The notes: a model not told the origin generated them from the letters alone. A stretch of 64,000 bases of DNA from Natronobacterium gregoryi SP2 (GCF_000230715.2 NC_019792.1:2542001-2606000); one strand, 5' to 3'; counted from the first letter of the stretch, positions 6,353-46,840 are shown. Translations and numbers: made by a program.

Positions 6353-6847
6353 ATGGATGATAGTATTCAATCCGGCGAGGATTTTGAAAGGTGGTGTTCA
6401 GGGGTCAAGCCAACAGCGTTAGAGGAGATCGTCGCTACGATATATCGAGAGCAAGGTTGGAGCGCTCACACCACCCCACCGACTAATGATGGTGGCGTTG
6501 ACGTGATATTCGCTTCAGATGATTCCTCCTCGGATATCGATGCACTTGTTCAAGTAAAGCGCTACACCGGAATCTACACGACTGTTGATGCTGACGCGCT
6601 TTATAAACTCCAGGAAGCTGCGAAAACCCATGATCCAAACCGATTGATCGTGGTTTCGACCGGACAGTTTGGTAATCCGATTGAAACTGAAGCTGCCGAC
6701 ACAGATGATTACGTTGTAGAATTGGTACGGTGCCGCGATCTCTATGACCAGATTACCCTCGAAGTGGTGTCTCTCCTAACAGAGACCTATTCCTCATTTC
6801 CTCATCGCAAAAACTGGTGGGAGCGATCAGACTACCCCAATCAATAG
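6353..6847 (+). CDS. Mrr-like restriction endonuclease domain protein
   Basis: A 164-residue stand-alone Mrr_cat-type domain. The catalytic core is visible as NDGGVDVIF (Asp) followed by ALVQVKRY (Q-x-K), and then helices like TVDADALYKLQEAAKTHD and the strand RLIVVSTGQFGNP, the usual Mrr layout. Mrr-family enzymes cleave modified DNA in type IV restriction; here there is no fused winged helix, so target recognition is unclear. ATG 6353 follows a TATA-like tatacttta by about 30 bases, fitting a leaderless start. It is divergent from the 5598-6251 gene. Confidence 0.75.
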   Translation: MDDSIQSGEDFERWCSGVKPTALEEIVATIYREQGWSAHTTPPTNDGGVDVIFASDDSSSDIDALVQVKRYTGIYTTVDADALYKLQEAAKTHDPNRLIVVSTGQFGNPIETEAADTDDYVVELVRCRDLYDQITLEVVSLLTETYSSFPHRKNWWERSDYPNQ

Positions 6848-7163: not shown

Positions 7164-8678
7164 ATGCTAACGTTTGGACACATCGCGGACACACACCTCG
7201 GGCATCGACAGTACGGACTGAAACAACGAGAGGACGACATGGTCTCAACCACGCGCGCTGCGTTCCAAGAAATGGTTGAGGAGCGCGGAACTGACGTAAT
7301 CGTGTTACCGGGAGATCTGTTCCACTCTCGGGATCTTCGACCGAAAGTCCTCCACCAGACCGAACAAGAACTCGACCAGATACCGGACGACGTCCCAGTG
7401 CTCGTTTCGCGTGGAAACCATGACGAAAATCTGACGCCGCGTGACGTGACGTGGCTGAATTACCTGCACCAACGCGGACAGATTGTCTTTCTGAAAGCCG
7501 ATCTGGATGCAGATCCGGATACAGCGCGATTCGAACCGTACGATCCCGAGGAGCCTGGTGAGTACGCGGGGTTCTACGATATTGAGACAGCAGAGTGTGA
7601 TGGCCCGATTCGCGTGTTCGGACTGCAGTGGCGTGGCGCGAAGACCGGGAAGGCACTCCAGCAAGTTGCGAACGGGATTCAAGCAACGAACGAGGAATAC
7701 GGCGAGCCGGCGTTCACGGTGTTGTTGGGGCACTTCGGGATGGAAGACGAGGTGCCGACGTTAGGTGGGACAGTGACGCACACCGAGTTGCGGGAGGTGA
7801 AGGAGGTCGTGGATTACCTTGCACTCGGGCATATCCACAAGCGGTACGAGGCCGGTGACTGGATCTACAACCCCGGCTCACCGGAAGCACACAATACGCG
7901 TGAAGGACGGGATGACTGGGAACATGGGTATTATTCAGTGTCGCTGAACGCCGATGCGTCCGAAGGCGACGAGTCAGTTAGCTACGAGGTGGCGCATCAC
8001 GAGTCAAAGCGTCGTCCGTATTACCGCATTGAGTTTGACGTGACGCCGTACGAGTCGCCAGGTGAATTAGAATCGGCGTTCCAAGAACACGTGCAAAACG
8101 AGCAGACGACGGTCAAGGAGTACTGTGAGCAGTCGAAGTATACGGCGCACGGTGAGCCGCGAGAGGCGATTCTTGACCTTCGGTTTACGGGGACGCTGCA
8201 GTTTAGTCGCGGGGACTTCCGAACGGACGAACTCGCGGCATACGCGGAAGAGACGTGTGAAGCGCTGTACGTTCAGGTGAATACTGGGATTCGGACTGCG
8301 AACGTGCAGCAACTCATCTCGGAGATCGATGAGGGAGAGGTGTTCAAAGACGGTCAGTTGAACACGGCTGCGTTGGAGGATAGTGTGTTCGAGACGATCG
8401 CGCAGGAGTCAGTGTATGCTGAGAACGCGTCGGATGTGGCTGATGTGCTGGGAGACGCACACCAGATGGCGCAAGCCGAAGAAGCGGTTGAGGACATCCA
8501 AGATTCGGTGAGTTCGGCGCGGCGGGACCTGTTCCCGGAGTTAGCCGACGACGTGGTTCTCGATATTGATGAGGATCCGTTCGACGATGGTGACGCCGCG
8601 GAAACCGCGTCGGATGCCGTGGAGACTGAGGAGTCGCGTGCTGAGGCTGATGAGGCTGCGGAGGTGATGAACGAATGA
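7164..8678 (+). CDS. mre11: Mre11/SbcD-family DNA nuclease
   Basis: A 504-residue calcineurin-like metallophosphoesterase. All nuclease motifs are present in order: HIADTHLGH (residues 7-15), LPGDLFHSR, SRGNHDEN, LLGHFGMED and LGHIHKRYE, the set that binds two Mn ions in Mre11. The C-terminal 150 residues are acidic and would contain the Rad50-binding segment. Mre11 with Rad50 processes DNA ends by 3'-5' exonuclease and endonuclease activity. It is the first gene of a five-gene unit, overlapping rad50 by ATGA. Its place in an accessory island suggests a second copy beside a core chromosomal pair, possibly used in defence; that is inference. Confidence 0.9.
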   Translation: MLTFGHIADTHLGHRQYGLKQREDDMVSTTRAAFQEMVEERGTDVIVLPGDLFHSRDLRPKVLHQTEQELDQIPDDVPVLVSRGNHDENLTPRDVTWLNYLHQRGQIVFLKADLDADPDTARFEPYDPEEPGEYAGFYDIETAECDGPIRVFGLQWRGAKTGKALQQVANGIQATNEEYGEPAFTVLLGHFGMEDEVPTLGGTVTHTELREVKEVVDYLALGHIHKRYEAGDWIYNPGSPEAHNTREGRDDWEHGYYSVSLNADASEGDESVSYEVAHHESKRRPYYRIEFDVTPYESPGELESAFQEHVQNEQTTVKEYCEQSKYTAHGEPREAILDLRFTGTLQFSRGDFRTDELAAYAEETCEALYVQVNTGIRTANVQQLISEIDEGEVFKDGQLNTAALEDSVFETIAQESVYAENASDVADVLGDAHQMAQAEEAVEDIQDSVSSARRDLFPELADDVVLDIDEDPFDDGDAAETASDAVETEESRAEADEAAEVMNE

Positions 8679-11386
8679 GAATCACGGAAGTCGCGTTAGA
8701 AGATATCAAGTCGTACAAAGGCCGGACAGAGGTACCGATCGAGGGCGGTGTGACAGCGATTCTCGGTGAGAACGGGGCAGGAAAATCGACGATTCAGGAA
8801 GCGATCGGGTTCGCGTTATTCGATTCGCTGCCATTCAACAACAAGGACTTCGTTCGAGAAGGCGCGAGCTCAGGGACCGTCGAGGTCACGTTCGACACGC
8901 CGACGGAAAACGGGACCGAGCGGTTCCGAGTAACTAGGTCGGTTGGCCGGTCGAACTACGGGGTGCATCGCTACGACGCTGAAACTGATGAGTGGATAGA
9001 CCAGGACATCGATTCGAAAAGCCAGTTGATGGACTGGGTGTGCGTTCGGTTCGACGTTGAGGATGGCGATGAGTTAGGAAGCTTGTGGGAGTCGTGTATT
9101 GGGGTGCCGCAGACGCGGTTCCTGTCTGACTTTTCGCAGACGGCTCGGAATCGGAAAGCGACGTTTGACGCGTTGCTGAATCTCGATGCGTACGAGGAAT
9201 CATGGAACCAACTCAAAGACGTCCCGGACGCGATTGAGAAGCAACAGCAGGATCTCCGGAGTGAGATCGATACGCTCACTGGCGAAGTGCAGAACCTGCC
9301 GGAGGAACGAGCAGAAGCAGAATCGTTGGCTGACGCAGTTGATGAGCTTGAAGCGCGTATCGAGCGGAAAGAGGCCGAGGTATCGGAGAAAGAAACGGAG
9401 TATGAGGAGTTAGCGGCTGTCGAAGAGAAGATCGAGTCCCTCGAAAACGAGGTTGAGTCCCTGGATCAGGAAATCGAGGCGACAGAAGACCAACTGGAAA
9501 ACGCTGAGGCGGAACTTGAGGATGCTGAGGAAGCCCGAAAGAAGTGCGAGGCAAACCGTGATGGGTATCAGCAGTATCAGGATGCGAGTGACCGACTGGA
9601 TGAGTTAGAAGAGGAGGAGGAAGAGCGGGACGCGCTTGAGGACCGGCGTGACGAACAGAGAGAGGAGATTCAGTCGATCGAGTTCCGAGTTGAGCAGCTT
9701 GAGGAGCAGTCGGAGACGCTGGAAGAAGCACAAGAGACGTTGGAGTCGCTTGAAACTGAGAAGGAGCGGTATGAGGGACTGGATGACCGGATTGAGTCAC
9801 TGAAGGACCGCGAAGACGACGTTGAGGCATTCCAGCAGGAGATTGAGGAACTCGCTGCAGAAATCGAGGAGACGGAAGCGGAGATTGAGTCGTTAGAAGA
9901 GACGATTGCCGAGATCGAAGAAGAGTGGGCGGAGACAACGGATCCGGACGAGATCGGGGAAGAGATTAACAACAAAGAGGTACGTCGGAAACAACTGAAG
10001 AACGAACGGGAACGACTCGAAGAGCAGTTAGAGCGGTTGCGTGATACGGATGTTGATGCGCCGTGCCCGACGTGTGACCGGCCGTTAAACGAAGAACATC
10101 GGTCGAAGACGATCGAGCAACGAGAAGATCGAATCGAGGAGATTGAAGCGGAGCGCGCGGATCTCGCTGAAGAGCTCGCGGAGTTACGCGAACGGCATGA
10201 GGCAGCGACCGAGGTCAAACAGCGCGTTGAGAAGATTTCTCTTCATCAGGATAAGATCGAGTCGTTAGAAGACGATCTCGACGAACTCCGTGAGGAGAAA
10301 GAGGAGACTGAGGCGGAGTTATCGGAGTTAGAAGACGAGTTAGCGGAACTCCCGGACCTCGAAGCTGAACGCGATGACTTAGAAGAGGCGTATAACGAGT
10401 ACCAGAAGGCAGAGTTCCGGGTAGACGAGCACGCGGATGCACCAGAGGAGTTGGAAGAAAAGCGCGCTGAGTTAGAAGAGGAACAGTCGGTGCTTGACGA
10501 GATTGCGGATGAGTTAGACGAGTTCGACGGACTGGATGAGGAGATCGGCGAGGTCGAGGACACGCTGGAAGAGACGAAGGAAGCATATCAGACGTATCTG
10601 CAGAACGAGCAGCAGGCATCGCAAGTCAAGGAGCGTCGGGAAAGGGCCGACGAATTGGACGATGAGCTTGCGGAGCTCGAAGCCGAGATCGAAGAAACGG
10701 AAACCGAGCTGGAGGAGACGCGAACGTCGTTTGATGAAGAACGCTTCGAGGCACTTGATGCAGAGATCGATGAGCTCAATGGCGAGATCCAGCGCGCCAA
10801 AGGAACACTTGAAGAAAAGAAGGAGAATCTGGAGCGGGTACGCGAAGAGATCGAGCGGTTAGAAGCGAAGTTGGAAGAGCGCCAGGAGAAGCTCCAGCAG
10901 TTGAAGGAGTTGAAGGCGGATCAGCAGTTCGCCGAGTGGGTGCGTGCGAACGTGCGGGAAGCGGGGCCGAAGATGCGTGAGATCATCACGGATCGGATCG
11001 GTGCGCGTGCGAACGAGTTGTTCCGATCGATTCGCGGCGCGTCTGGGGAGACGCTGGAATGGACGAGCGATTACGAGATCGTCGTACACGATGCGGACGT
11101 GCGGAAGTCGTTCACGACGCTGAGTGGCGGTGAGAAGATGGCGGCTGCGCTTGCAGTGCGCCTCGCCATCCTGGAACAGTTAGCGTCGGTCGGTGTGGCG
11201 TTCCTCGACGAGCCGACAGCGAATCTGGACCGGGAGAAGAAGCAGAACCTGGTCACGCAGTTGAAGCAGTTGGATAGTTTCGAGCAGCTCACGGTCATTA
11301 GTCACGACCAGACGTTCGATTCGATGACGGATTACACGGTCACTGTGGAGAAGGACCAGCAGTCGTCGGAGGTGACCGTGAATTAA
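8675..11386 (+). CDS. rad50: Rad50/SbcC-family SMC-like ATPase
   Basis: A 903-residue ATPase partner of Mre11. Walker A is GENGAGKST at residues 31-39. Two very long Glu/Arg-rich coiled coils flank a zinc-hook CPTC at about residues 464-467. The C-terminal lobe has the ABC signature LSGGEK and the Walker B VAFLDEPTANLD, followed by the H-loop VISHDQTF. Length and layout match archaeal Rad50. It starts at the ATGA overlapping the mre11 stop and ends one base into nurA, so the three subunits are translationally coupled. Long GA-rich stretches reflect the coil composition, not a repeat element. Confidence 0.92.
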   Translation: MRITEVALEDIKSYKGRTEVPIEGGVTAILGENGAGKSTIQEAIGFALFDSLPFNNKDFVREGASSGTVEVTFDTPTENGTERFRVTRSVGRSNYGVHRYDAETDEWIDQDIDSKSQLMDWVCVRFDVEDGDELGSLWESCIGVPQTRFLSDFSQTARNRKATFDALLNLDAYEESWNQLKDVPDAIEKQQQDLRSEIDTLTGEVQNLPEERAEAESLADAVDELEARIERKEAEVSEKETEYEELAAVEEKIESLENEVESLDQEIEATEDQLENAEAELEDAEEARKKCEANRDGYQQYQDASDRLDELEEEEEERDALEDRRDEQREEIQSIEFRVEQLEEQSETLEEAQETLESLETEKERYEGLDDRIESLKDREDDVEAFQQEIEELAAEIEETEAEIESLEETIAEIEEEWAETTDPDEIGEEINNKEVRRKQLKNERERLEEQLERLRDTDVDAPCPTCDRPLNEEHRSKTIEQREDRIEEIEAERADLAEELAELRERHEAATEVKQRVEKISLHQDKIESLEDDLDELREEKEETEAELSELEDELAELPDLEAERDDLEEAYNEYQKAEFRVDEHADAPEELEEKRAELEEEQSVLDEIADELDEFDGLDEEIGEVEDTLEETKEAYQTYLQNEQQASQVKERRERADELDDELAELEAEIEETETELEETRTSFDEERFEALDAEIDELNGEIQRAKGTLEEKKENLERVREEIERLEAKLEERQEKLQQLKELKADQQFAEWVRANVREAGPKMREIITDRIGARANELFRSIRGASGETLEWTSDYEIVVHDADVRKSFTTLSGGEKMAAALAVRLAILEQLASVGVAFLDEPTANLDREKKQNLVTQLKQLDSFEQLTVISHDQTFDSMTDYTVTVEKDQQSSEVTVN

Positions 11387-12651
11387 TGCCGATCGACAAA
11401 CACGGGGTTGCTGCCGAGTTGGAGTCCAGCGTTGAGACGATCGAAGCGTATCTGGACGATGGTACGGGGATCGTCGAGCGGTATCAGGACGCGTTCCAGC
11501 GGCTCCCTGAGGAGTGGACGAGCGAGGAGATCCGTGAAGAGTTGCACCGAGCGTCATACCCTGGAGCGTATCCGACCGACGAGTTCGATTCCGCGAGTAG
11601 CCTCGTCGTTCCGCATTCCGAGAGTGATGGGTGGGAGAACCACGAGGAGATCAACGAGTGGGCGCGCGAGATTCTCAATGATGTGCCGGTGATGGCTGTG
11701 GACGGGTCGCAACTCCCGCCGACCACGGAGTTCAACGTCCCGCTGGCGTACGTCCAGGCAGCGTGGGCAGTCAATTATCATCACGCTGACGGCCGGCTTG
11801 AACGAGATGTCGACGGGCGGTTGTTGACACCTGACGAAATCACGCGGGAATCTGAGGACGGAGATTACCGGTTCGTCGATTCGCAACTCGTCGGGCATCA
11901 TCGCTTCGAATACGAAGGATCGCTGCTCATCGAGCAACTCGTGGAACTAGCAGCTGCTCGTGATGCCGGCGACATCGACCATACGCCGATCGTCTTCTAC
12001 GATGGCCCGCTGATCGCATCGTTTGCGAATCCGTTGAAGCCGGAGACGCGCGAGCGATACATCTCGACGTTAAGCCGGGTGATCGCGGCGAGTCAGCACC
12101 ATGAGATCCCGCTGGTCGGGTATATCGCGGGCTCGAGCGCGACTGAACTCGTGAAGATGACGCGACTCCTGTTACAGGATGAGTTCGAGACTGACCGTGT
12201 CATCCCAGACGCGCACGTTCTGACAGAGTTGATGAGTCCGTGGGGCGATACGACAATTCCGTTCATTTCGAAGCGCGACGGGAGCATCGACGCGTTACAG
12301 ACGACGTACGAAGGAGAGCAGTACGAGTTCCGGGATGATATCCTGTTCTCGTACCTCAACGTCCCGCCTGGTGCTGGGCTCGATCGGATCGAGTTCCCTG
12401 GATGGCTGTGCCGCCGCGATGGGCCTGATGGGTACGACTCGATGTACGAGTATACTGTCGAGATTGTACGGGCTGAAGCTGGGGTTGGGCGCGGCTACCC
12501 GGAGATCCTCCAGCAAGCTGATAGTGACGCTGTACTCGACCATCAAGACCGGCAACAGTTCCATCGGATCGTCCAGCGGTGGGCTGACTCGAACGACGTC
12601 CCGCTCGGATGGAACGCCAAAGCCCTCAGTAAGGAACTCCGTCGTCGATGA
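11386..12651 (+). CDS. nurA: NurA-domain 5'-3' nuclease
   Basis: A 421-residue NurA-family protein. The first motif MAVDGSQLPP carries the metal-binding Asp, with later conserved segments IVFYDGPLIASF and VGYIAGSSATELVK and a C-terminal His/Asp-rich end, as in archaeal NurA. NurA works with the HerA translocase to resect DNA ends after Mre11-Rad50 has opened them. Start ATG 11386 overlaps the rad50 stop by one base (TAATG). A 73-base gap separates it from the next gene, the only gap in the operon. Confidence 0.85.
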   Translation: MPIDKHGVAAELESSVETIEAYLDDGTGIVERYQDAFQRLPEEWTSEEIREELHRASYPGAYPTDEFDSASSLVVPHSESDGWENHEEINEWAREILNDVPVMAVDGSQLPPTTEFNVPLAYVQAAWAVNYHHADGRLERDVDGRLLTPDEITRESEDGDYRFVDSQLVGHHRFEYEGSLLIEQLVELAAARDAGDIDHTPIVFYDGPLIASFANPLKPETRERYISTLSRVIAASQHHEIPLVGYIAGSSATELVKMTRLLLQDEFETDRVIPDAHVLTELMSPWGDTTIPFISKRDGSIDALQTTYEGEQYEFRDDILFSYLNVPPGAGLDRIEFPGWLCRRDGPDGYDSMYEYTVEIVRAEAGVGRGYPEILQQADSDAVLDHQDRQQFHRIVQRWADSNDVPLGWNAKALSKELRRR

Positions 12652-12724
12652 CCATGATCGCTCATCGCGTTCCCTCGGTAGTACGCACGGAGCAAGCAAC
12701 AGGCAGCCACACTAATCGCAATCT

Positions 12725-13390
12725 ATGACGAACGTATCAACACCAAGTGATTCGCCGGACGTTGACTCGTGTGTCCGGATCGGGAGTATCGTGTCCTCGA
12801 ACAGCCACCTCGATTACGTCGCAGAGGTCTACAAGGACCGGGACTGCGACCGACCGCCGGAACTACACGAACGCGAGTTCGGGCAACCAGTGTTCATCAA
12901 GAAGACCGTTGACGGGACTGAACACGTGATTGTCGGCGTGATTTACGACACGCAATTAGTGGATCCAGATCAGGGACGAACCGGGCCGCGATTAGCCCAA
13001 GACGACCAAGCGCAGTTCACACCAGGGTACATCGAGGAGCGAACGACGCTCGTCGGGATTGCGCTGCTCGGCACGGCAGTCATTACTGACGACCGGACAA
13101 TCGCGGATCCAAGTCACCAGATGCCGCGATGGACACTGGAAGTTGACGACACAGTGTACCACTGCCCGGACCAATTCACAGAAGCGTTCCACCGCGTGGA
13201 TGGGCAAATACAGTTGGCGTATCTGGATCGGTTAGTGGATATCGCGGGCGACCTCGGTGCGGAAGTCATCGTGACACTGATCGACCGGTTGCGAGGGGTG
13301 CTTCCTGAGGACGACTCGAACCAGCGCGTGTTAGACGTCGTCGAGCAGAACGTGCAGTGGCAGGCGCGTGAACAGCGAGGGGTGGTCTAA
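12725..13390 (+). CDS. HerA-associated protein, possible HAS-barrel
   Basis: A 221-residue protein between nurA and herA. The first 110 residues (CVRIGSIVSSNSHLDYVAEV, FGQPVFIKK, VGVIYDTQLVD) read like a beta-barrel of the HAS type found at HerA N-termini. The remainder has a helix-rich region (YLDRLVDIAGDLGAEVIVTL). No catalytic motif seen. It overlaps herA by one base (TAATG), so the two are coupled, and it may act as an adaptor or second barrel for the HerA ring. I know similar small proteins beside haloarchaeal herA genes but no established function. Confidence 0.65.
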   Translation: MTNVSTPSDSPDVDSCVRIGSIVSSNSHLDYVAEVYKDRDCDRPPELHEREFGQPVFIKKTVDGTEHVIVGVIYDTQLVDPDQGRTGPRLAQDDQAQFTPGYIEERTTLVGIALLGTAVITDDRTIADPSHQMPRWTLEVDDTVYHCPDQFTEAFHRVDGQIQLAYLDRLVDIAGDLGAEVIVTLIDRLRGVLPEDDSNQRVLDVVEQNVQWQAREQRGVV

Positions 13391-15033
13391 TGTCGGGGCA
13401 GATGGACGTGATCGGAACGGTCGCTGGCCCTGGGGACGGACCGAACGAGTTCGTCTTTGTCGCACCGGCGGATAGAACGATCAAGACGGGCGAGTTCATC
13501 ACGTACTCAGTTACGGTCGAAGGCGACACTCGGTCAGTGTTTGCCCGCGTGACGAACCGTGAGTTAATCAGAGGCCTTCCGGAGGGGTTCCTCGCCGATC
13601 CGAATGTCGCTCCTGACACTGTCGCGGCGACACTTGGGGTTCCGACTGACGACACGGAGTTGTACCGGTTGACCGCGACGGTCATCGGGTACTACGATAC
13701 GACTATGACGACGTTCGCCAATCCGCGGCAATTACCTGACCCGGGAACGCCGTTGTCTGTCGCACCGGATCCTCAGCTCGAAACGGTGCTGCCGAACCTC
13801 GGCTGTGAAACCGACCGCGTCGACGTGACTGAGTTGGAAGGCGTCGCGCACATCGGCTGGTTACTGAACCGAGCGGAAGAAGCGACGAACATCCATCTCC
13901 CAATCGAGGAGTTCGTATCGACGCACTTGGCGATCCTCGCGGAAACTGGTAGCGGGAAATCCTACACCGCGTCTGTCCTGATTGAGGAGATGATGCGGCC
14001 CAGTTCCCGTGCCTCACTACTGGTGTTCGATCCGCACGGTGAATACAGCACACTGGACGAAATGCAGGGTCACGAGGCGTTCCAAGGCGAAGACGGGTAC
14101 CAGCCGGATGTCGTGTACTATGATCCGGAACGACTCCACGTTCGGATTTCTGAGTTGGAACTCGGGGACGTCATGGCGATCTTGGATAACCCGAGTAACA
14201 GGATGCAGGAACGGCTCTCGACAGCGTGGCGTTCAATGCAGAAACGAGAGAGTCGAACCTGGGGAGTCGATGATCTCATCCACGAGATGGAGCAGATTTA
14301 CGACCCGGATGACTCCAGCGTCGGCGCGTTAGAGTGGCGTCTTCGCCGGTCGATACAGCGGAACGACTTGTTCCACCCCGAAGAGAACGTGCCGTTGGAC
14401 GAAATCGTGGATCCTGGTCAGTGTACAGTCCTTCAGATGGATACTCTGGACAAACGGGATCAGCAACTCATTACAACGGTTCTCGTGCGTCGACTGTACC
14501 GAGAGCGCCTCAACGACGTGCGTGGCCGAGACTCCGAGATCGAACACCCGATTTTCTCCCTGTTCGAGGAAGGCCATCGATTCGCCCCTGCCTCAGGTGA
14601 TGCGCCATCGCTTGGCATCATGCGGACGATCGCGTCTGAAGGACGTAAGTTCGGGTTCGGACTCGGAATCATCAGTCAGCGCCCGTCAAAGATCGACCCG
14701 GACGTCCTGTCGCAGTGCGGGACGCAGATTTCGATGAAAATTCGGAATCCAAACGACCAGGACGCGATCAAGAAGTCCGTCGAGGCCGCCGGCGAGGACG
14801 TCACCCGCGAATTACCTGGTCTGACGCCCGGGCAAGCGATCGTCTCCGGCGACGCGATGAACACGCCGGCGCTCATCCAAGTTCGACGTCGGCTCACAGA
14901 ACACGGTGCTGAGAGTCGCCCGGTAATCGACGACTGGCAGGAGGCGTATGAGCGCAAGCAGCGTGAGCCGTCTCAGTCTGAAGCAGCTGACTTCGGTGGT
15001 GGCGATTCGACTGGCGTGCAGAGTCTCGACTAA
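13390..15033 (+). CDS. herA: HerA-type hexameric DNA translocase
   Basis: A 547-residue FtsK/HerA ATPase. An N-terminal HAS-like barrel (about 1-125) precedes Walker A AETGSGKSYT (about 187-196), FDPHGEYSTL, Walker B FSLFEEGHRF (about 390), and the C-terminal segments GIISQRPSKIDPDVLSQC and GQAIVSGDAM that are diagnostic of HerA. HerA pumps DNA through its ring and stimulates NurA. It is the last gene of the mre11-rad50-nurA-X-herA unit; the tail is acidic and low-complexity. A PLD/ATPase gene faces it about 1 kb downstream. Confidence 0.9.
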   Translation: MSGQMDVIGTVAGPGDGPNEFVFVAPADRTIKTGEFITYSVTVEGDTRSVFARVTNRELIRGLPEGFLADPNVAPDTVAATLGVPTDDTELYRLTATVIGYYDTTMTTFANPRQLPDPGTPLSVAPDPQLETVLPNLGCETDRVDVTELEGVAHIGWLLNRAEEATNIHLPIEEFVSTHLAILAETGSGKSYTASVLIEEMMRPSSRASLLVFDPHGEYSTLDEMQGHEAFQGEDGYQPDVVYYDPERLHVRISELELGDVMAILDNPSNRMQERLSTAWRSMQKRESRTWGVDDLIHEMEQIYDPDDSSVGALEWRLRRSIQRNDLFHPEENVPLDEIVDPGQCTVLQMDTLDKRDQQLITTVLVRRLYRERLNDVRGRDSEIEHPIFSLFEEGHRFAPASGDAPSLGIMRTIASEGRKFGFGLGIISQRPSKIDPDVLSQCGTQISMKIRNPNDQDAIKKSVEAAGEDVTRELPGLTPGQAIVSGDAMNTPALIQVRRRLTEHGAESRPVIDDWQEAYERKQREPSQSEAADFGGGDSTGVQSLD

Positions 15034-15335
15034 TCCTGCCCATCCAGCCCACAGAACTCGGCTGGTCTGTTTTTCTGAAGGGATTGTCTCTAGATTTCGA
15101 AGAAATCATTGCTAGCCATGCTTGGCTCAGCCGTCGCGCGCGGCGAATTGGTTGTTTCATGGTTGTTCTCATCACGATACAATCTTTCAATTGCTATGAT
15201 GGCTGATATGGTCGTGCTGTCAGTCGGAGGGTCGTGCTGTGAGTCTGGATTCTGGCTTCTAACGACCTGATGGGTTAGAAATCGCGGGGAATCGGGGCAA
15301 GGTTTTAAATTCAATTGGCGGTTGTCCCGGTTTGC
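15034..15335. other. intergenic region, promoter at the right end
   Basis: About 300 bases downstream of herA with no convincing gene. A TATA box (tttaaa, 15304-15309) lies about 27 bases before the next start. Confidence 0.4.
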
Positions 15336-15647
15336 ATGCAGCGAGTCATCGACCGGAAGCTGTACGATACAGACCAGGCCGAACAGATTGCTCGATACGC
15401 TCCGCTCACAGATAAGGGCGATTTCAACTACCTGATCGAGACCTTGTACAAGACCTCTGACGGGGAATACTTCCTCCATGGGGACGGCGGTGCAGCGACG
15501 AAATGGGCGGAGAAGATCAGCAACAAGCGCATGTCCAGCGAAGAAATCCAGCTATTGACTGACGAAGAAGCCCTGAACTGGTGTGAGGAGCGAGCAGTAG
15601 ACGGCGAAATTGTCGTCGAGGAATTCAGCCACTTAGTCGAAACGTAG
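15336..15647 (+). CDS. small conserved hypothetical protein
   Basis: A 103-residue protein beginning MQRVIDRKLYDTDQAEQIA. ATG 15336 is chosen over the upstream in-frame codon at 15315 because tttaaa at 15304-15309 places transcription start at the ATG. The sequence VIDRKLYDT...A...YAPLTDKGDFNYLIETLYKTSDGEYFLHG resembles short haloarchaeal proteins that I recall beside plasmid and provirus genes; function unknown. The C-terminus has an acidic helix (SSEEIQLLTDEEALNWCEE). A GC-rich imperfect hairpin (15670-15690) just after the stop could end its transcript. Confidence 0.6.
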   Translation: MQRVIDRKLYDTDQAEQIARYAPLTDKGDFNYLIETLYKTSDGEYFLHGDGGAATKWAEKISNKRMSSEEIQLLTDEEALNWCEERAVDGEIVVEEFSHLVET

Positions 15648-15786
15648 TTCGAACAACCGCCTCGGAAACCCGCCACTCGGTAGGTGGGCGGCATACTGCG
15701 GATCATTCCCGCAGCGAGGTTTCATGACAACAGGTGGCAGCAACCTCCACCGATGCGGCGTAAGCCGTGATGCGGTCATATGTTGA

Positions 15787-16077
15787 TCGGCCAAGACACC
15801 AACTCCCATCACGAACAAAAGGAAGCATCGCAGCAGCAGAACGCTGGTATCGGCATTTGGTCATCACCCGTTCAAGGAGCAGTGGACATGTGCGTGTGAG
15901 GAATTTGAATCAGGAGATGTCAAAGATCACCCAGTCATCGACCCCAGAGAGTTAGGTGATGACGTCGTAGCGACGCTCGCCGAGTACTTCGACGATCTGC
16001 GAGAGGCGGCAAGACGTAATGAGACAGCGGACGCGGTGATCGATCGAATTGATACAGTACTCCAACGGGAGTTGTGA
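15787..16077 (+). pseudogene. relic of an unidentified gene (C-terminal part)
   Basis: An open frame without a start codon, bounded by TGA at 15784. It encodes HHPFKEQWTCACEEFESGD, HPVIDPRELGDDVVATLAEY and an amphipathic helix to LQREL, with ordinary haloarchaeal composition. In another frame, ATG 15779 starts a 39-codon frame (MLIGQDTNSHHEQKEASQQQ) that ends at a TGA within this one. That suggests a frameshifted small gene. No family recognised. Confidence 0.35.
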
Positions 16078-16107
16078 CGTTTGAAGTACGGGTTGACTTT
16101 CAGAGAG

Positions 16108-18381
16108 TTAATCGCCAAATAGCCGTGAGAGGAAACCGCTCGACTCGTTTTCATTGGAAGTTGTCTTTGGTTCAGTCGGCAGTTCGTTATCGCTGCTTGT
16201 CTCGGCGACCCCATTCAGCAGTTCGTCGACGGAATACCCGATCCATTCGGCGAACTCCTCTGGGGCTCCGATGTAGACGCTCGTAGAGGATTTTTCGGAC
16301 ATGAAGCGTTTCGGGAGGCGTTTCTCGTAGTCGTACACTTCGTACTCTTCACGATCGAAGTCAGCAGTGATCGCGTCGGGTTCAGATTCAAACGTGACGC
16401 GGCCGCCTTGAATGTCCCGCTGCCACTTGAGGCGGCCTGTGTCGTACGTTTTCTCAGCCGGTTCGTATGCAGGGAAGTATTCTGGTTGCTCTCGGCCAGC
16501 CTCAACGTAGAACTCACGGAAGATACGTCGAACATCCTCAATGGTGCCGTTTCCGTCGGTCCAGGGTTGTTCGGTGAGCATTCGACGGGCGACGTAACTG
16601 AAGATCGGATTTTCCCGTTCTAGTACTTCGGCGAGATCATCTTGAGCCTCGCGGAATCCTGGATCTTCAGGGTTTGATGGGAACGATACGTCCATGCTCA
16701 GGATTTTCATTCGGTTCCGGAACTCTGATTTCGGGAGTGCGTCGTTCGTCGTGAAGATGAGGCAGGGCTGATCAACGCTCGTCGGTGTCCAGTCACCCCA
16801 GTAGTTCCGGATCGGACTCCAATTCTGGATCTTGCGCTTTTCCGCGTCAATGATGGCGTACGGGAAACACGTATCCCACTCGCGGATACCGCGGATTTCT
16901 CCGACACCGACGTCGTCCGCGTCCACACCTGAGACGACTGTGTTATCAGAGATGAGTCGAAGGATGTATTCTGTGAGTTTGTCTTTCCCAGCGTCGCTTT
17001 TCCCTTCGATATAGAGGTGTTGGAGAACGTTGTCTAGCGTCCGTGAGGGGGAAGAGAGTGCTTCGGCATACTGATTGGCGAACGGAGCCCAAAACCCGTA
17101 GAGGAACGCCTCGTACATCTGAGCCATCACTGCGGTCGTAGACTGTGTGTGCCCGTGATTATCGACGGTCTCGATGTAATCCTCGATCGTTTCGAGACAG
17201 TGGTTGAGGACCTCGGGTGTTGGTTCGTCGGTGGCGACGAGGATCATCTCGTCGTCTTCCCCGATCATGACCTGTTCGGCCTCCGGAAGAACGGACATTG
17301 TCGGAATTGCCGTTGATTCCTTGACTTGGTTGTTGTATGCGCTCAGGGGCGCAGTGATACTGTGGTCTTCGACGGTCGCACCGCGGTCACGGAGGCCAGT
17401 CCCGAATTCGTTGGCAGTGTCTTTGTCCACTTTGCTCGTACCCATTCGGATCTTCTCGTCAGGTGCTCTGACTCGCGGCCGGTCGAGTGTGTCCGTTAAG
17501 CTTGTCTCGTGCTCGGATTCGACGAGTCCGACATCCGGTGACTCGTCATTGTCTTCTGTCTCGTCTGACCCGTTCTCACCTGTTGAATCGTCGGGTTCGA
17601 CAACGGTACGGTCGGCGTTCTCGGGTTCCTCGATGAACGCAACTGTCTCATCGGCTTCCTCTGGGTTATCCACAACTGCGGTAACCTGGTCAGCGACGTC
17701 CTTCAGATCCTCGACGGCGTCCTGATTCAGTGCAGCCGTGTCGCTCACATCGAGATCGCCTGTACCAACCCAGTACTCGATGCGGTTCTCCCGCTCTTCC
17801 GGCGAATCAGCATCCTCAATCGCTTCGACTAACCCCTCAAGAAGTGTCTGGTTGCTGTACCCTTCGCGGTACTCGTCGATGAACTTCTCGAATTCTTTGT
17901 CCAGTTCTGTCCCGACTTCGGTCGTAAAGACAGAGATCTGGTTCGTATGGTACTCCCACGAGTTCCGCGAAAGATTCGCAGACCCCTGTACGAGCTTCAC
18001 CGTGTCGTCCGGCATTACGATCCGGTAGATCTTCGAGTGGACCGTCTTCCGGTTTTTCAGCCGAACCGTGAGACGGTCATCTTGTCGGAGCTGAACCAAC
18101 GACCGAGCTGTTGAAACCTCACTGACTTGATCAGCGTAATCCTCAGCGTTCCCGATCAGGACATCCAGCGATCCGATATCATACTCCGTCAACATCTTCA
18201 CCATCAACTCAGGTGTCTCTGCGTAGGTCACCGCGTCAACGTGGCGCGCACCCTCGAACAGATCAAGGAAGTCCCCTCGCTCCTTTACCATCGCCAGACG
18301 ATACTTTGCTGCGCCTGACCCGTAGAATTCCGGCATATCGGCGAACCTGTCGAACGAAATGTTCGCCGTAAGTTCGTCCAT
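16108..18381 (-). CDS. PLD nuclease fused to AAA/SF3-like ATPase
   Basis: About 757 residues. The N-terminal domain has a single phospholipase-D motif: VHSKIYRIVMPDD (about residue 113) then VQGSANLSRNSWE; one HKD suggests activity as a dimer. Residues 210-300 are an acidic linker. The C-terminal half has a Walker A-like EGKSDAGKDKL (about 460), a strand ACFPYAIID-like segment, Walker B-like QPCLIFTTND and an arginine-rich sensor EFRNRMK, as in AAA+/SF3 helicases. Start ATG 18381 is preferred to 18420 because a TATA-like tttattgg lies about 27 bases upstream. It converges on the mre11-herA operon, whose end-processing theme it shares. The fusion is not one I recognise from a named system. Confidence 0.7.
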   Translation of the reverse strand: MDELTANISFDRFADMPEFYGSGAAKYRLAMVKERGDFLDLFEGARHVDAVTYAETPELMVKMLTEYDIGSLDVLIGNAEDYADQVSEVSTARSLVQLRQDDRLTVRLKNRKTVHSKIYRIVMPDDTVKLVQGSANLSRNSWEYHTNQISVFTTEVGTELDKEFEKFIDEYREGYSNQTLLEGLVEAIEDADSPEERENRIEYWVGTGDLDVSDTAALNQDAVEDLKDVADQVTAVVDNPEEADETVAFIEEPENADRTVVEPDDSTGENGSDETEDNDESPDVGLVESEHETSLTDTLDRPRVRAPDEKIRMGTSKVDKDTANEFGTGLRDRGATVEDHSITAPLSAYNNQVKESTAIPTMSVLPEAEQVMIGEDDEMILVATDEPTPEVLNHCLETIEDYIETVDNHGHTQSTTAVMAQMYEAFLYGFWAPFANQYAEALSSPSRTLDNVLQHLYIEGKSDAGKDKLTEYILRLISDNTVVSGVDADDVGVGEIRGIREWDTCFPYAIIDAEKRKIQNWSPIRNYWGDWTPTSVDQPCLIFTTNDALPKSEFRNRMKILSMDVSFPSNPEDPGFREAQDDLAEVLERENPIFSYVARRMLTEQPWTDGNGTIEDVRRIFREFYVEAGREQPEYFPAYEPAEKTYDTGRLKWQRDIQGGRVTFESEPDAITADFDREEYEVYDYEKRLPKRFMSEKSSTSVYIGAPEEFAEWIGYSVDELLNGVAETSSDNELPTEPKTTSNENESSGFLSRLFGD

Positions 18382-18847: not shown

Positions 18848-19732
18848 ATGATCCCGCTAGATGTGTTTGGGTCGGAATCGGTCGCAGCGGACCTGTTAGA
18901 GCAGGTTCGCTGGCGTAACGGTGTTACTTGCCCTCGCTGCCGTTCTGACCTGACGGTCAAGAACGGTAGCTATGGGCACTTTCAGCGCTATCTCTGTAAG
19001 AATTGCGACCGCACGTTCAACGACAAGACCGGCACAATCTTCGCCCATTCGAAAGTCGCACTCAGAAAGTGGCTGTTCTCGATTTACGCGTTTCTCCGGT
19101 TTAACACGAGTCTTCGTCAACTTCAGATAGAGATCGACGTCCAGTACAAAACGATCTATCAGCGCGTCGAGCGCTTCACGAAGGCGCTTGATGCACCTTC
19201 GCTTGACCTTGTCGGACCGGTCGAAATCGATGAAGTCTACGTTTCTGCAGGGCTGAAAGGCCGCGAGCGCGACCAAGAGTCGCGCTCGCGTGGCCTGTCC
19301 ACGCGTGGGCGAGGAACGTACGAGCAGGACAAACCGCCGGTGTTCACGATCGTCGATCGTGGCACCGGCGACCGATACGTGATCCCAGCGAAATCAGCCG
19401 ACGAATCGACGATTCGGCTCCTTCTCGAAAACCGTCAGAAGGAGCCACTGACCGTCTACACTGACGGATTTCGTGCCTACGATCCACTGGCCGAGGACGA
19501 CGCATTCGACCGCGAATACGTCGTCCACGGCGACGGCGAATACGCCAACGAAAACGTACACGTCAACACCTGCGAGAGCCACGGATCGCTGCTGCGACCG
19601 TGGCTCTCGCCTCATCGAGGCATCTCAAAAGACAAGCTCACACAGTATCTCCGAGCGTTCCAACTTCGACGAAAGCTACTGCGGAAACCAGGGAGAGAAG
19701 CGCTCAAACACGCTATCAAAGCGACGCTATGA
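18848..19732 (+). CDS. IS1595-family transposase
   Basis: A 294-residue DDE transposase. The N-terminal zinc ribbon is CPRCRSDLTV...YLCKNCDRTF (about residues 28-58), followed by a helical DNA-binding region and the catalytic core with VEIDEVYVSAG (first Asp), VYTDGFRAYDP (second Asp) and a late NTCESHGSLLRPWLSPHRG segment. This architecture (zinc ribbon plus ISXO2-like DDE domain) defines IS1595 and fits the haloarchaeal ISH4-like group. The frame is intact, so the element may be active. The coding sequence holds several perfect hairpins (for example 19262-19290 and 19572-19610). Confidence 0.88.
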   Translation: MIPLDVFGSESVAADLLEQVRWRNGVTCPRCRSDLTVKNGSYGHFQRYLCKNCDRTFNDKTGTIFAHSKVALRKWLFSIYAFLRFNTSLRQLQIEIDVQYKTIYQRVERFTKALDAPSLDLVGPVEIDEVYVSAGLKGRERDQESRSRGLSTRGRGTYEQDKPPVFTIVDRGTGDRYVIPAKSADESTIRLLLENRQKEPLTVYTDGFRAYDPLAEDDAFDREYVVHGDGEYANENVHVNTCESHGSLLRPWLSPHRGISKDKLTQYLRAFQLRRKLLRKPGREALKHAIKATL

Positions 19733-22314: not shown

Positions 22315-23307
22315 ATGAGTTCAGCGACCCTGCAAGATGACCCTTCGGTAGACTCGTTTTTCAATGTCGTGGAGACCGAGACGCTAGCGCTGTTCGAGCA
22401 CCTTTCCTTCGAGTTTCTCGAAGAGTTCGACGTGTTCGCCCCGGCGGAGACGGGGCGAACACGAGACCACGAACCTCCAGAGCTGATGCGTGGCTTTCTC
22501 CACTGCTACTACAAGGACATCTACGGCATTCGCCCCGTTGAACGAGAGCTACGGAATACAGTTGTCTGGCTGAGCTGTGGGTTCGATCGACCGCCGTCGA
22601 GAGACGCGGTCGATCGCTTCCTCACCGATCTCGAACACGTCGTTGACGAGGTTTTCGACCACCTCGTCGAGCAGGCCGCCTTGCGGGGCCTGCTCGACTT
22701 GACCTACTCCATTGATTCAACTGACGTGAGGGCGATGCCTGCCGATCAAGACGCGTCGAAGTGCTACGATCCAACCAACGACGAGTACTACCACGGCTAC
22801 GGCTGTACAATCGTCTCGACCGGGCAAAAGATCCCGATTGCGGCGGAGTTCACAGAGAGTAAACAAGCGACAGAGGAGACGGCGATGCGCGTCACCCGTG
22901 ACGCGCTCGCCGTCGCCAAGCCGATTTGGATGGTCGGTGACAGTGCCTACGACACGCTGGACTGGCACGACCACCTGCTGGCTGCAGGGGTCGTGCCAGT
23001 CGCCCCGTACAACGCGCGAAACACCGACGACCCGAAAGATATCGAGTATAGGGTCGAAGACCGTATCGAACAACACAGCGAGGACGTTCAGTTGAAGCAG
23101 TCCACGTTGGATGAGACGTACAACCGCCGTACTGGAGTCGAACGAACCAACGAATCAGTGAAGGACTGCGGCCTCGGGCGAACGCACGCCCGAGGCCGCG
23201 TTCACGCACGATCGCAGGTGTTCCTCGCTCTGTGCCTTCGTCTCGTCATCGCAATTACCAACTACGAACGTGGAGACAATCCGGGAAGCACCGTGATCAC
23301 GGTGTGA
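22315..23307 (+). CDS. IS4-superfamily transposase, copy 1
   Basis: A 330-residue DDE transposase. Visible catalytic segments are YSIDSTDVRAM (first Asp), WMVGDSAYDTLDW (second Asp) and YNRRTGVERTNESVKDCG, which matches the IS4 signature Y-(2)-R-(3)-E-(6)-K exactly. The protein sequence is identical to that of copy 2. The coding region includes at least seven perfect hairpins with 8-13 bp stems and a 16-bp palindrome just before the stop. It is intact and probably active. Confidence 0.88.
   Translation: MSSATLQDDPSVDSFFNVVETETLALFEHLSFEFLEEFDVFAPAETGRTRDHEPPELMRGFLHCYYKDIYGIRPVERELRNTVVWLSCGFDRPPSRDAVDRFLTDLEHVVDEVFDHLVEQAALRGLLDLTYSIDSTDVRAMPADQDASKCYDPTNDEYYHGYGCTIVSTGQKIPIAAEFTESKQATEETAMRVTRDALAVAKPIWMVGDSAYDTLDWHDHLLAAGVVPVAPYNARNTDDPKDIEYRVEDRIEQHSEDVQLKQSTLDETYNRRTGVERTNESVKDCGLGRTHARGRVHARSQVFLALCLRLVIAITNYERGDNPGSTVITV
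22431..23304 (+). repeat. train of hairpins within transposase gene, copy 1
   Basis: Inverted repeats read directly: 22431-22463 (13-bp stem CGTGTTCGCCCCG), 22584-22616 (11 bp), 22645-22668 (8 bp), 22666-22698 (12 bp), 22879-22915 (8+9 bp with one bulged T), 22960-23001 (13+5 bp with one bulge), 23168-23199 (13 bp, six-base loop) and the palindrome CACCGTGATCACGGTG at 23289-23304. Copy 2 repeats them in the opposite orientation. Confidence 0.85.
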
Positions 23308-41529: not shown

Positions 41530-42438
41530 ATGGATTCGGATCGTGCCCGCGGTGTTCTGGTAGGGTTAGCGTGTGGGGATGCACTTGGACGACCAGTTGA
41601 GTTCGACACCGCGTCTGCGATCTCCGCTGAGCACGGAGTACTCGACGAGATGGTCGGGTACGGAACGTGGAACCAGCCGGCTGGAACGATTACTGACGAC
41701 ACTGAGCAGGCGTTGTGTATTGCGCGGAGTCTCATCCAGCAACAGGAGTTCGACCCGACTGATATCGCGGATCGGTTCGTCGCGTGGTACGAGAGCGATC
41801 CGTTCGACATTGGCCGGATGACGCTACGTGCGCTTAGTCGCCTCGACAAAGGAGCGACGTGGGATGAGGCAGGGCAGCAGGTCTGGGAGGATAGCCCGGA
41901 GGGTTCAAACGCCGGGAACGGAAGTGTGATGCGGTGTCTGCCGCTCGCCATCCCGTACGCAACTGAGTGGGAGAGACTCGTGGAAGTGAGTCGCCAGTCT
42001 TCCCAGATTACGCATGCAGACCCTCGGTGTACGTACGGTTGCGCGATTCTCAACCTCACGGTAGCTGGGTTACTCGACGACGCTGGCACGCCGCTGCAGG
42101 ACGCGCTCGATTACGTCGCGGCAGATGCACCGGACGAACTCACGACCGCACTCGAACCCATTGCCGGCGGGAACTCGCCAGGAGCGCTCGAAATGTCCGG
42201 GTACGTCGTTCATTCGCTGCAAACAGCACTTCACGACGGGCTGCGGGCTGGCAGTGCTGAGGAGGCGATTGTGACTGCGGTTAATCGCGGTGGGGACACT
42301 GATACGATCGGTGCGATCGCGGGTGCGGTTGCTGGTGCGCGGTTCGGTGCGTCACGAGTTCCGGACCGATGGCTGTCTGCTATTGATGAGACGGACGAAC
42401 TTGAATCGTTGGCAGATGACCTCTTGGAGGTGGCGTGA
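41530..42438 (+). CDS. ADP-ribosylglycohydrolase (DraG/ARH family)
   Basis: 302 residues. Metal-binding and catalytic motifs are in order: GLACGDALGRPVEF, ITDDTEQALCIA (T-D-D-T), NAGNGSVMRCLPLA, THADPRC and NRGGDTDTIGAIAGAVAGA. The family removes ADP-ribose from proteins or nucleic acids, using two Mg ions. Its stop overlaps the start of the HAD/HEAT gene (GTGATG), so they form a two-gene unit. In an island, such an enzyme could reverse the effect of an ADP-ribosylating toxin or counter phage ADP-ribosylation; no partner toxin is visible here. Confidence 0.88.
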   Translation: MDSDRARGVLVGLACGDALGRPVEFDTASAISAEHGVLDEMVGYGTWNQPAGTITDDTEQALCIARSLIQQQEFDPTDIADRFVAWYESDPFDIGRMTLRALSRLDKGATWDEAGQQVWEDSPEGSNAGNGSVMRCLPLAIPYATEWERLVEVSRQSSQITHADPRCTYGCAILNLTVAGLLDDAGTPLQDALDYVAADAPDELTTALEPIAGGNSPGALEMSGYVVHSLQTALHDGLRAGSAEEAIVTAVNRGGDTDTIGAIAGAVAGARFGASRVPDRWLSAIDETDELESLADDLLEVA

Positions 42439-44159
42439 TGTACGTGCTTGCGTTCGACCGGGACTGGACAGTTGACGTAAATCCGCACCCAAGTCGAGAA
42501 GCGGTGCCGATCGAGTGGGTTCGGTACTGGGCATACGAGACCGAGCACGAGGTCTGGGCGATCGGGAACCAGGATCTCGTCGATGAAGCCGATATTCCGG
42601 GAACGGTCGAATCTATACGGCGGCGTGATGGGGATATCGATGCGCTAGGTGACCGGAATGAGTTCGGGAACTACGAGTGGTGGCCGGAGCGAGAAGCGCG
42701 GCTTCGAATACTCGCTGAGTTGTTTCCCGATGCAGACGAGTACGTTGTCGTCGATGATCTCGATTTGAGTCACGTTGATGGATGGGATCATTACCACGCA
42801 TGGGACTTCGTCGAACTCGTCCGAGACGGAAAGATCGAATTGTCGATCCCGTCCTCAGACGATCTGGTTCCTGACGGTGGGTTCGAATCAGCGGACGAGG
42901 TACGAGACATCTTAGCCGACGGGTACGTGTTTGAATTCACGTATCGGACGGAAGAGGAGACGAAAACGCATTTGGTCACGCATTTCGAGCCGGAGCGCCC
43001 GTCGATGAAGCCGTTGAAAGGCCCGCCGGCGTTCTGGTTCGAGACCGTTGGGAACGAGGAGAAGTTCTCTGTTCGACTCCCGGATATTGAGTCGGTTCAT
43101 CCTGTACCGTATGAGCGCCTCGCTGATCCGTTCTTAGGGGCGGCGTTCGCTGCGGTTCGATCACAACTCGAAGAGGATGCTGAGACCGTAGACGGTGAGA
43201 CGCTACGCGAAATGCTCAGCGATTCCGTGTCGAATCCGGCACGCGTGGAGCAGCGTGAGGCACTTCGGCTTGCGATGAGCACGCTGCAGCATCGAGAAGC
43301 TGAACGCGAACTGGCTATCGAAGCTGTGTTCGAGGTAATAGCTGATGAGCCCAGCACACTCGATCGGAAAGCGCTTCGAACCGTGTGGGAATCGACGAAG
43401 GATGAACCGGCGGTGTTGGAAGAGTATGTGCCTGAGTTGGCGAGTTATGCGAGCCAAGAATCACCGTGCCAGCCAGCTGCGACGCGCTGTTTGATGGAAA
43501 TCGCTGAAGCGAATCCTGGCAGTGTACTCGAAGCAGTTCCAGCGGTGGAGACTGCTGTAACAAGTGGTTCTGGGATGACACAAAGTTACGCGGTGTACAC
43601 GTTCTCCAGTGTTGCAGAAGAGTACCCTGAAGAAGTGTTCCCCGCGGTTCCTGCGTTGATCACGGCGTTGCAAAGCGACGACGATACGACGCAGACGAAC
43701 GCGTTAGCAGCACTTGGAAAGATCGCGTCGAACTATCCGGATGCTGCTGAACCAATCGTAGACGAGTTAGTGGTGTTGCTGGATGCTGAGGCGAAGAGTG
43801 TTCGGAATAATGCAGTCGGATTGCTGGGTGATCTCGCGCAAGAACACCCTGACATCGTGATTGAACACGCTGATCGGATCGCTGCCCGACTGGAGGACAA
43901 TAACGTTCAGGCGCGCGTGAACGCGTCACTTGCACTGCTTCAAGCAGGTGAGGCGGATCCGAGTGCGATCAGGGCGCAACAGGATCAGTTGGAGAGTGCG
44001 CTGGAGGATCCAAGCCCGGAAGTCCGAGCGAATGCGTGTTCGCTGATTGGAAACGCGAACGTACCGGTTCCAATTGAAGAACTCAAAGAGTTAGAAGCGA
44101 ATGATATGAACGACACAGTCCGCGAGCGTGCAGCCTGGACGATTACGCGGGTAAACTAG
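42438..44159 (+). CDS. HAD-like domain plus HEAT-repeat protein
   Basis: 573 residues from ATG 42438 (GTG 42435 also possible). The N-terminal 120 residues resemble a HAD hydrolase: LAFDRDWTVDVNP (D-x-D-x-T-like), IEWVRYWAYETEHEVWAIGN, then EYVVVDDLDLSHVDGWDHY. A middle region of unknown fold leads to a C-terminal solenoid of HEAT repeats from about residue 270 (SYAVYTFSSVAEEYPEEVFP; TNALAALGKIASNYPDAAEP; NNAVGLLGDLAQEHPDIVIE). It is coupled to the ADP-ribosylglycohydrolase. The HEAT part probably binds a partner protein or nucleic acid. Confidence 0.65.
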   Translation: MYVLAFDRDWTVDVNPHPSREAVPIEWVRYWAYETEHEVWAIGNQDLVDEADIPGTVESIRRRDGDIDALGDRNEFGNYEWWPEREARLRILAELFPDADEYVVVDDLDLSHVDGWDHYHAWDFVELVRDGKIELSIPSSDDLVPDGGFESADEVRDILADGYVFEFTYRTEEETKTHLVTHFEPERPSMKPLKGPPAFWFETVGNEEKFSVRLPDIESVHPVPYERLADPFLGAAFAAVRSQLEEDAETVDGETLREMLSDSVSNPARVEQREALRLAMSTLQHREAERELAIEAVFEVIADEPSTLDRKALRTVWESTKDEPAVLEEYVPELASYASQESPCQPAATRCLMEIAEANPGSVLEAVPAVETAVTSGSGMTQSYAVYTFSSVAEEYPEEVFPAVPALITALQSDDDTTQTNALAALGKIASNYPDAAEPIVDELVVLLDAEAKSVRNNAVGLLGDLAQEHPDIVIEHADRIAARLEDNNVQARVNASLALLQAGEADPSAIRAQQDQLESALEDPSPEVRANACSLIGNANVPVPIEELKELEANDMNDTVRERAAWTITRVN

Positions 44160-46102: not shown

Positions 46103-46840
46103 TTAAACGCCAATCCCGGCGAACGTGGCAGTCACGGTTCCTGTTCCGTTGGCGATCGGATACTGAAGTCGTACGTGTTCTCGGTTTCCTAGTTCCCATC
46201 GCATCAGCGTGTCGGCGGGAATCACTCGCTGAATCGGCGCGAAGTAATCGAGTGACACTGGTTGCCCGACAGCAGACCCCTGTACCCGTTCGACGTCCGC
46301 CGCACCGAATTCGAAGTTAAACGCATCCCGCATGTTGTTTGTGGTTCCTGAGAAGGTAGTCGGATTGGAATCGACACGCAGGCGGATCTGCGAGCCAGCG
46401 ATGTCTGCTAACTCGATAGGTACGTCCAGTTTACGGCTTGGGAGGGTCGCCATCGCGGGCTGGTCGGCGTCGAGTGGAGTGAATACGATCGGGACAGTAT
46501 TGGAACCGACGAGCGAGAACGTGTACGTGAGTGAACCTGCAGTAAGTGTTATCCAACTCTGTTCAGCATTGATCTCGATCTGAATCAGATCGGTCTCACC
46601 GACAATATTGAGAAACTGAGCGACCTGAGAGAGGTTGATACCGGTTTCCATCGGCTCTGCAGAGTAGGAGTTGAAAGCTGCCTCGGACGCTGAGACCTCG
46701 ACGATTGCTTCCCTCGATTTATCCGTGGCGTGTATTTCGATTCCGTCTGGTTCGACACGCAACAGCTCGTGGCTTTTCAATGTCGTCGGTGGGGCGACGA
46801 TCGCTTCGAAGTCGTCCTGCAGGATTGTCGCGGTCAGCAT
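46103..46840 (-). CDS. pcn: diverged PCNA-type sliding clamp
   Basis: 245 residues, the normal length for archaeal PCNA. Both clamp domains are visible: VEPDGIEIHATDKSREAIVE, FNSYSAEPMETGINLSQVAQ, LTAGSLTYTFSLV, then QPVSLDYFAPIQRVIPADTL, MRWELGNREHVRLQYPIANG and a terminal strand GTVTATFAGIGV. The interdomain loop has an unusual run (PIVFTPLDADQPAMATLPSR) and the sequence is far from core haloarchaeal PCNA. It is probably a mobile-element or virus-derived clamp. It lies next to a transposase gene on the same strand. Confidence 0.8.
   Translation of the reverse strand: MLTATILQDDFEAIVAPPTTLKSHELLRVEPDGIEIHATDKSREAIVEVSASEAAFNSYSAEPMETGINLSQVAQFLNIVGETDLIQIEINAEQSWITLTAGSLTYTFSLVGSNTVPIVFTPLDADQPAMATLPSRKLDVPIELADIAGSQIRLRVDSNPTTFSGTTNNMRDAFNFEFGAADVERVQGSAVGQPVSLDYFAPIQRVIPADTLMRWELGNREHVRLQYPIANGTGTVTATFAGIGV

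Follow-up and report, generated by a model that had tools for sequence, protein, structure and literature searches.

Why does a haloarchaeon with DNA-end-processing genes of its own carry a further set in an island, facing the gene of a predicted nuclease? The window considered here is the whole 64-kb stretch of DNA that was analysed, positions 2,542,001-2,606,000 of the single-contig 3.79-Mb genome of the haloarchaeon Natronobacterium gregoryi SP2; coordinates follow window numbering except where genome positions are given. It contains a five-gene operon, Mre11-Rad50-NurA-X-HerA (the cassette), next to a gene for a PLD/AAA fusion protein. The operon is probably a horizontally mobile accessory DNA-end-processing machine that has been turned to the destruction of invading DNA. 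Genome context gives good support to a defence role; the machine as such is an old operon of the repair type. The genes concerned are:

7164-8678, + strand: Mre11 (504 amino acids, aa) of a type I cassette (types are given below); Metallophos, 1.9e-11 (Pfam)
8675-11386, + strand: Rad50 (903 aa); AAA_15/AAA_23 and zinc hook (Pfam)
11386-12651, + strand: NurA nuclease (421 aa); PF09376, E=3.6e-24
12725-13390, + strand: X, a predicted stand-alone HAS-barrel protein (221 aa); predicted structure and profile comparison
13390-15033, + strand: HerA DNA translocase (547 aa); DUF87, E=2e-38
15336-15647, + strand: small open reading frame (103 aa) in the space that separates HerA from the PLD gene; locus L039 has a relative
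16108-18381, - strand: putative AgaP-family fusion of a PLD nuclease and a P-loop ATPase (SF3/AAA+-like; 757 aa); motifs, Foldseek and BLASTP

The operon occupies 7164-15033, with five coupled genes in tandem on the + strand. Neighbouring genes overlap by 1-4 bp at three of the four junctions; NurA and X are separated by a 73-bp gap. The PLD/AAA gene is convergent and faces the operon. This arrangement had been described in the initial annotation, and it is borne out by the coordinates, by Pfam and by a gene order that recurs in 30 loci. The catalytic motifs of all four enzymes are intact, and their invariance was checked over 28-30 loci. The Mre11 phosphodiesterase residues D9, H11, D51, N85, H86, H190, H223 and H225 are unchanged in 28 loci. 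Rad50 has an invariant Walker A, CPTC hook (464-467), SGGE signature, DEP Walker B and H-loop; the invariant residues of NurA include D106, E177, D206 and D275; HerA keeps its TGSGKS Walker A and DPHGE Walker B. The window thus holds the four-enzyme archaeal Mre11-Rad50-HerA-NurA end-processing set in one operon with its motifs intact. The same four enzymes, with conserved motifs and in a single operon, form the mre11-rad50-herA-nurA repair operon of thermophilic archaea (Constantinesco 2002/2004; PMC7776575, PMC12977600). Unlike that operon, the window set includes the HAS-barrel protein X, is accessory and transferred on top of core copies, and is linked to PLD and Argonaute genes.

Protein X has no match in a Pfam search, and a sequence search of the PDB returned nothing; a predicted fold was needed. 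The AlphaFold model has a pLDDT of 83. Its top PDB matches in Foldseek are all HerA chains (E 3.7e-6 to 6e-6), among them that of the T. kodakarensis HerA-NurA complex, and the X profile aligns with the HerA N-terminal profile (hhalign E 8e-6, prob 84). Because of these two results, X is modelled as a free-standing HAS barrel, a relative of the HerA N-terminal domain. HerA binds NurA through this same HAS-barrel domain (PMC9960219); X therefore probably sits at the HerA-NurA face or modulates it, and is proposed to be a HerA/NurA-associated subunit. In other archaeal families too, relatives of X lie between the NurA and HerA genes, and an expanded X profile matches 53 of 393 genomes from the phylum. 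Since the NurA-X-HerA order extends to these families, X is old; its relatives there rule it out as an island-only protein. What is new here is X as a conserved HAS-barrel protein, the fifth member of a much-studied machine.

The initial annotation suspected a dedicated DNA-degrading defence machine rather than housekeeping repair, a claim that would be undermined if these genes were the only copies in the genome. They are not. A further Mre11-Rad50 pair lies at ~564 kb of the genome (33% and 27% identity to the cassette where aligned), a second NurA at 2,622 kb (2622042-2622986; L069/L070), and other DUF87 (HerA-like) genes elsewhere, one of them at 2,625 kb (2625244), near the second NurA. 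Because these separate genes exist, the island operon is an extra set. Core Mre11 is likewise present in 25 of 30 cassette-bearing genomes (the copy in G208 being only 36% similar) and in two cassette-free congeners. A NurA-domain gene is found in 115 of 116 Halobacteria genomes and also in Haloferax volcanii; this contrasts with published statements that haloarchaea are without NurA and HerA.

The distribution of the cassette was followed in 292 Halobacteria genomes. Full-length X is patchy, occurring in 30 of them and in neither of two congeners. The order Mre11-Rad50-NurA-X-HerA is identical in all 30 X-bearing loci, contig cuts aside. Pairwise identities of the five cassette genes are closely correlated (rho 0.84-0.95); those of cassette and core Mre11 are barely so (rho 0.13). 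Between Haloplanus ruber (L134 = G079) and Natronomonas sp. LN261 (L139 = G049), cassette Mre11 is 98% identical and core Mre11 61%. On the HerA tree, one family with 6 rows requires 6 changes. Megaplasmid-borne copies occur in Natrinema zhouii, Halobaculum marinum, Halorussus salilacus and strain DL31. The cassette is a co-inherited unit that has moved horizontally between haloarchaeal families. Its flanks vary among loci, and PLD and Argonaute genes are the two commonest recurring non-cassette neighbours. In empty-site mapping, the right flank of the window maps to separate places in both congeners. Neither X nor the PLD protein has a match in IMG/VR viral contigs; this was weighed as neutral, and a viral origin of either protein was set aside.

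The PLD/AAA protein matches RE_NgoFVII/PLDc_2 in Pfam (~8e-5). In its family, the H-x-K...G-S-x-N motif and the P-loop G-K are invariant. Its model (pLDDT 67) gives Foldseek matches in the PLD part to the NgoAVII R protein (1e-6) and SauUSI (2e-6), and a weak match to the SV40 large-T helicase (LTag, 2.5e-4). BLASTP aligns it over its full length with AgaP of Natrinema pellirubrum (NC_019963 copy; 30% over 722 columns, E=7e-93). On the N. pellirubrum plasmid pNATPE02, the PLD homologue starts 64 bp after a Piwi gene; this pair presumably corresponds to the ago-agaP operon of the literature. In that system, APAP (a long-A Argonaute with AgaP; PMC11442185), the AgaP catalytic centre restricts plasmid DNA in vivo, and AgaP strengthens immunity against a single-stranded DNA virus. 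By its sequence, the window PLD/AAA gene is an AgaP relative, an assignment that is new here. It resembles APAP in encoding a full-length AgaP homologue with HxK and GSxN kept, and its relatives adjoin ago. It differs in gene context and in motif spacing. In APAP, ago is directly adjacent (31-64 bp), while the window PLD gene has no adjacent ago. The APAP motif is split as HxK(x)49GSxN; the gap is 15 in the window protein, compared with 44-49 in the clade that holds the N. pellirubrum copy. The APAP paper names only a neighbouring helicase gene; end-processing operons are unnamed there (PMC11442185).

The linkage of cassette and PLD/AAA gene, on which the initial annotation also depended, is conserved in other genomes. 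A PLD-family match occurs in 67 of the 292 genomes, X in 30 and both in 20 (p=6.5e-8); in 13 of these 20, the PLD gene lies within ~10 kb of the cassette (p ~1e-18 under random placement). The neighbourhoods of 61 PLD-family loci were compared with 20 random control regions of haloarchaeal genomes, and three kinds of end machine were found. Type I, Mre11-Rad50-NurA-X-HerA, adjoins 13 of the 61 PLD loci. Type II, a diverged Mre11-Rad50-NurA-HerA set without X, adjoins eight. Type III, the AddAB-like AddB - PD-(D/E)XK - UvrD/PD-(D/E)XK set, adjoins 15. None of the 20 control regions is near an end machine. In L228, L231 and L234 the PLD gene starts ~25-50 bp after HerA, and in one type III clade it lies 6 bp ahead of AddB; in type II and III operons generally, gaps to the PLD gene are 6 to ~50 bp and the strand is shared. 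The PLD tree requires at least eight switches of partner type, near-identical copies included. That AgaP/Argonaute loci repeatedly adjoin DNA-end machines of three kinds is new here. Type II operons stand beside AgaP-family genes in L231, L234, L082, L089 and L096; in L096 the operon also adjoins BREX genes (BrxHII, PglZ).

Argonaute genes are found with all three types. A Piwi gene adjoining the PLD gene is Pfam-confirmed in L220, L221, L230, L099 and L065. Type III loci commonly take the form of an Ago-AgaP-AddB-PDDEXK-AddA operon (L099, L235-L242), the type II loci L231 and L234 read Mre11-Rad50-NurA-HerA-AgaP-Ago, and the type I locus L065 reads Ago-AgaP-Mre11-Rad50-NurA-X-HerA on one strand. 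Locus L052 reads Ago-Mre11-Rad50-NurA-X-HerA. In L039, L040, L041 and L132 (Natrinema hispanicum), Ago is divergent and ~2.7 kb upstream of Mre11. A substantial Argonaute match occurs in 38 genomes, and in 18 of these an end machine is no more than 3 kb away from ago; in five of the six genomes that have both Argonaute and cassette the two are adjacent. In the genome of the window, an 887-aa Argonaute is encoded at 2,525,063-2,527,726 (L071:3063-5726), ~14 kb before the window and ~21 kb upstream of the operon; its N-terminus reads like NgAgo, which it presumably is. The operon Ago-AgaP-AddB-PDDEXK-AddA (L099:5465-16747, L235-L242) occurs in nine haloarchaeal genomes and is a candidate defence system; its AddB-like protein had no match in a PADLOC search. 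In the open-licence papers searched on Argonaute neighbourhoods and archaeal islands, NurA, Mre11 and AddB go unmentioned, and two of the papers name HerA, in other contexts only; earlier notice elsewhere is possible.

The position of a second, transferred set beside a nuclease of an Argonaute-partner family hints at the reuse of a repair machine against invading DNA. In the proposed mechanism, the AgaP-family nuclease, guided in some genomes by a neighbouring Argonaute, would break invader DNA. Mre11-Rad50 would next open or clear the broken ends, and a HerA hexamer with NurA would thread the DNA and degrade both strands. X, as a free HAS barrel, would probably dock on the HerA-NurA face as an adaptor or gate. 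In genomes with Argonaute, the resulting fragments may become its DNA guides, as conjectured from the RecBCD-CbAgo analogy. HerA-NurA of T. kodakarensis digests both DNA strands, and an antiviral role has been proposed for it (PMC12977600). A bolder proposal, which is held only tentatively, is that AgaP-family nucleases recruit any of three interchangeable end machines (types I-III) that shred the cut invader and supply DNA guides, as an encoded counterpart of RecBCD-CbAgo, with X as a hitherto overlooked HAS-barrel subunit of archaeal HerA-NurA.

Several observations weigh against a dedicated defence machine. The five-gene order is also found in non-halophilic archaeal families; it is old and probably housekeeping outside Halobacteria. 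Core Mre11 was not found in G002 or in the Halococcus-type genomes G072, G156, G235 and G252 among the 30 cassette genomes; since the cassette Mre11 is the only one found there, the cassette may do housekeeping in these five. In 17 of 30 cassettes the PLD gene is absent within ~10 kb, and the random-placement null is lenient because accessory genes cluster in islands. Argonaute is present in only six of the 30 cassette genomes; 24 are without a full-length copy, and genome-level co-occurrence is not significant (p=0.25), so Argonaute was rejected as an obligate cassette partner. The dedicated role claimed in the initial annotation is accordingly retained in part: the extra set, the conserved PLD linkage and the experimentally demonstrated immunity of the AgaP family speak for it, and the old gene order and the genomes with a single Mre11 speak against it.

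Some of these observations lend weight to a backup or specialised housekeeping role, in which an acquired operon of ancestral type carries out ordinary double-strand-break resection and lies in an island because acquired genes land there. The gene order of non-halophilic archaea, the single Mre11 of Halococcus-type genomes and the role of Mre11-Rad50-HerA-NurA as a repair operon in thermophiles (PMC7776575) all fit it. However, 25 of the 30 carriers keep a core Mre11, nearly all Halobacteria have their own NurA, and the cassette is patchy, horizontally spread and repeatedly found beside an immune-type nuclease and Argonaute; such a role is rather unlikely. A mere neighbourhood is also doubtful; in this reading, island clustering has gathered the end machine and the PLD/Argonaute genes, each an independent defence or accessory function, and they do not act together. 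Many cassettes are without PLD, accessory genes do cluster, and 25 of the 61 PLD loci fall outside types I-III, three of these adjoining Argonaute only. Against this, other accessory families do not recur beside the cassette, the gaps in type II and III operons are 6 to ~50 bp and the strand is shared, and three unlike end machines have each been paired independently with the PLD family, a pairing absent from random regions. A function for plasmids or integrated elements, whether in recombination, in copy control or in attacking rival elements, instead of host immunity would agree with the megaplasmid copies in four haloarchaea and with the insertion sequences around the window operon. It is very improbable; the cassette is often chromosomal, no replication or integrase gene is among its conserved neighbours, and the module is absent from IMG/VR viral contigs.

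The proposed reuse of a repair machine against invading DNA has partial parallels in known systems. According to a published summary, bacterial CbAgo clears DNA jointly with RecBCD (PMC10164581). The likeness is that of an Argonaute that removes invader DNA with an end-degrading helicase-nuclease; here Argonaute has AddAB-like or Mre11/HerA/NurA genes as neighbours, and cooperation is putative. The E. coli experiments use the host's own RecBCD, whereas here the machines appear to be dedicated and encoded inside the defence locus. Sir2-HerA/Nezha and HerA-DUF4297 also combine a HerA-family translocase with a nuclease partner, and PADLOC HerA models match the window HerA (9e-50); unlike in these systems, its neighbours are NurA, X and PLD plus Mre11-Rad50, without SIR2 or DUF4297. 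The NgoAVII R protein and SauUSI share the N-terminal PLD domain fold (Foldseek ~1e-6), but the window PLD is fused to an SF3/AAA+-like ATPase instead of their other domains. The window Rad50 matches LmuB models of Lamassu (7e-34; shared SMC/coiled coil), and its neighbours are Mre11 and NurA; LmuA and LmuC matches are absent and the operon was rejected as Lamassu. PADLOC does not assemble the cassette as a known system, and X, NurA, Mre11 and the AddB-like protein have no meaningful matches there.

The remaining features of the island are:

6353-6847, + strand: Mrr-type restriction nuclease, directly upstream of the operon; Mrr_cat 1.1e-18
18848-19732: IS1595-type transposase; a 100% identical copy lies at L071:18196-19077
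22315-23307 and 54464-55456: two copies of a DDE_Tnp_1 transposase with identical first residues
23644-27015: HKD(PLD)+SNF2 helicase fusion; PADLOC C3a139, 5e-65
41530-44159: ADP-ribosylglycohydrolase, then a HEAT-repeat protein
46106-46840: PCNA-like protein, possibly an accessory sliding clamp; PF00705, 1.7e-5

The initial annotation called the island defence-rich. This holds only in part. The Mrr-type nuclease, the HKD+SNF2 gene and the HNH and HsdR_N genes fit the description; a defence match is absent from most island genes. The Mrr-type nuclease is not a conserved neighbour of the cassette. The insertion sequences are possible routes for island rearrangement. Relatives of the ADP-ribosylglycohydrolase or the HEAT-repeat protein occur near cassette or PLD loci L059, L061, L083, L089 and L090. 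A ~90-bp dispersed intergenic repeat at 62562-62655 occurs in ~20-35 places in each of two congeners (72-81% identity). An Rfam scan of the window found nothing.

An operon of this kind sits 21 kb from a gene that is presumably that of NgAgo. The finding bears on where the guides of prokaryotic Argonautes come from and how these proteins dispose of DNA once it is cut. It also bears on the disputed role of archaeal HerA-NurA, which may be repair or antiviral (PMC12977600). End-processing operons encoded with Argonaute and a PLD partner, in three versions, make both questions testable in haloarchaeal genetics.

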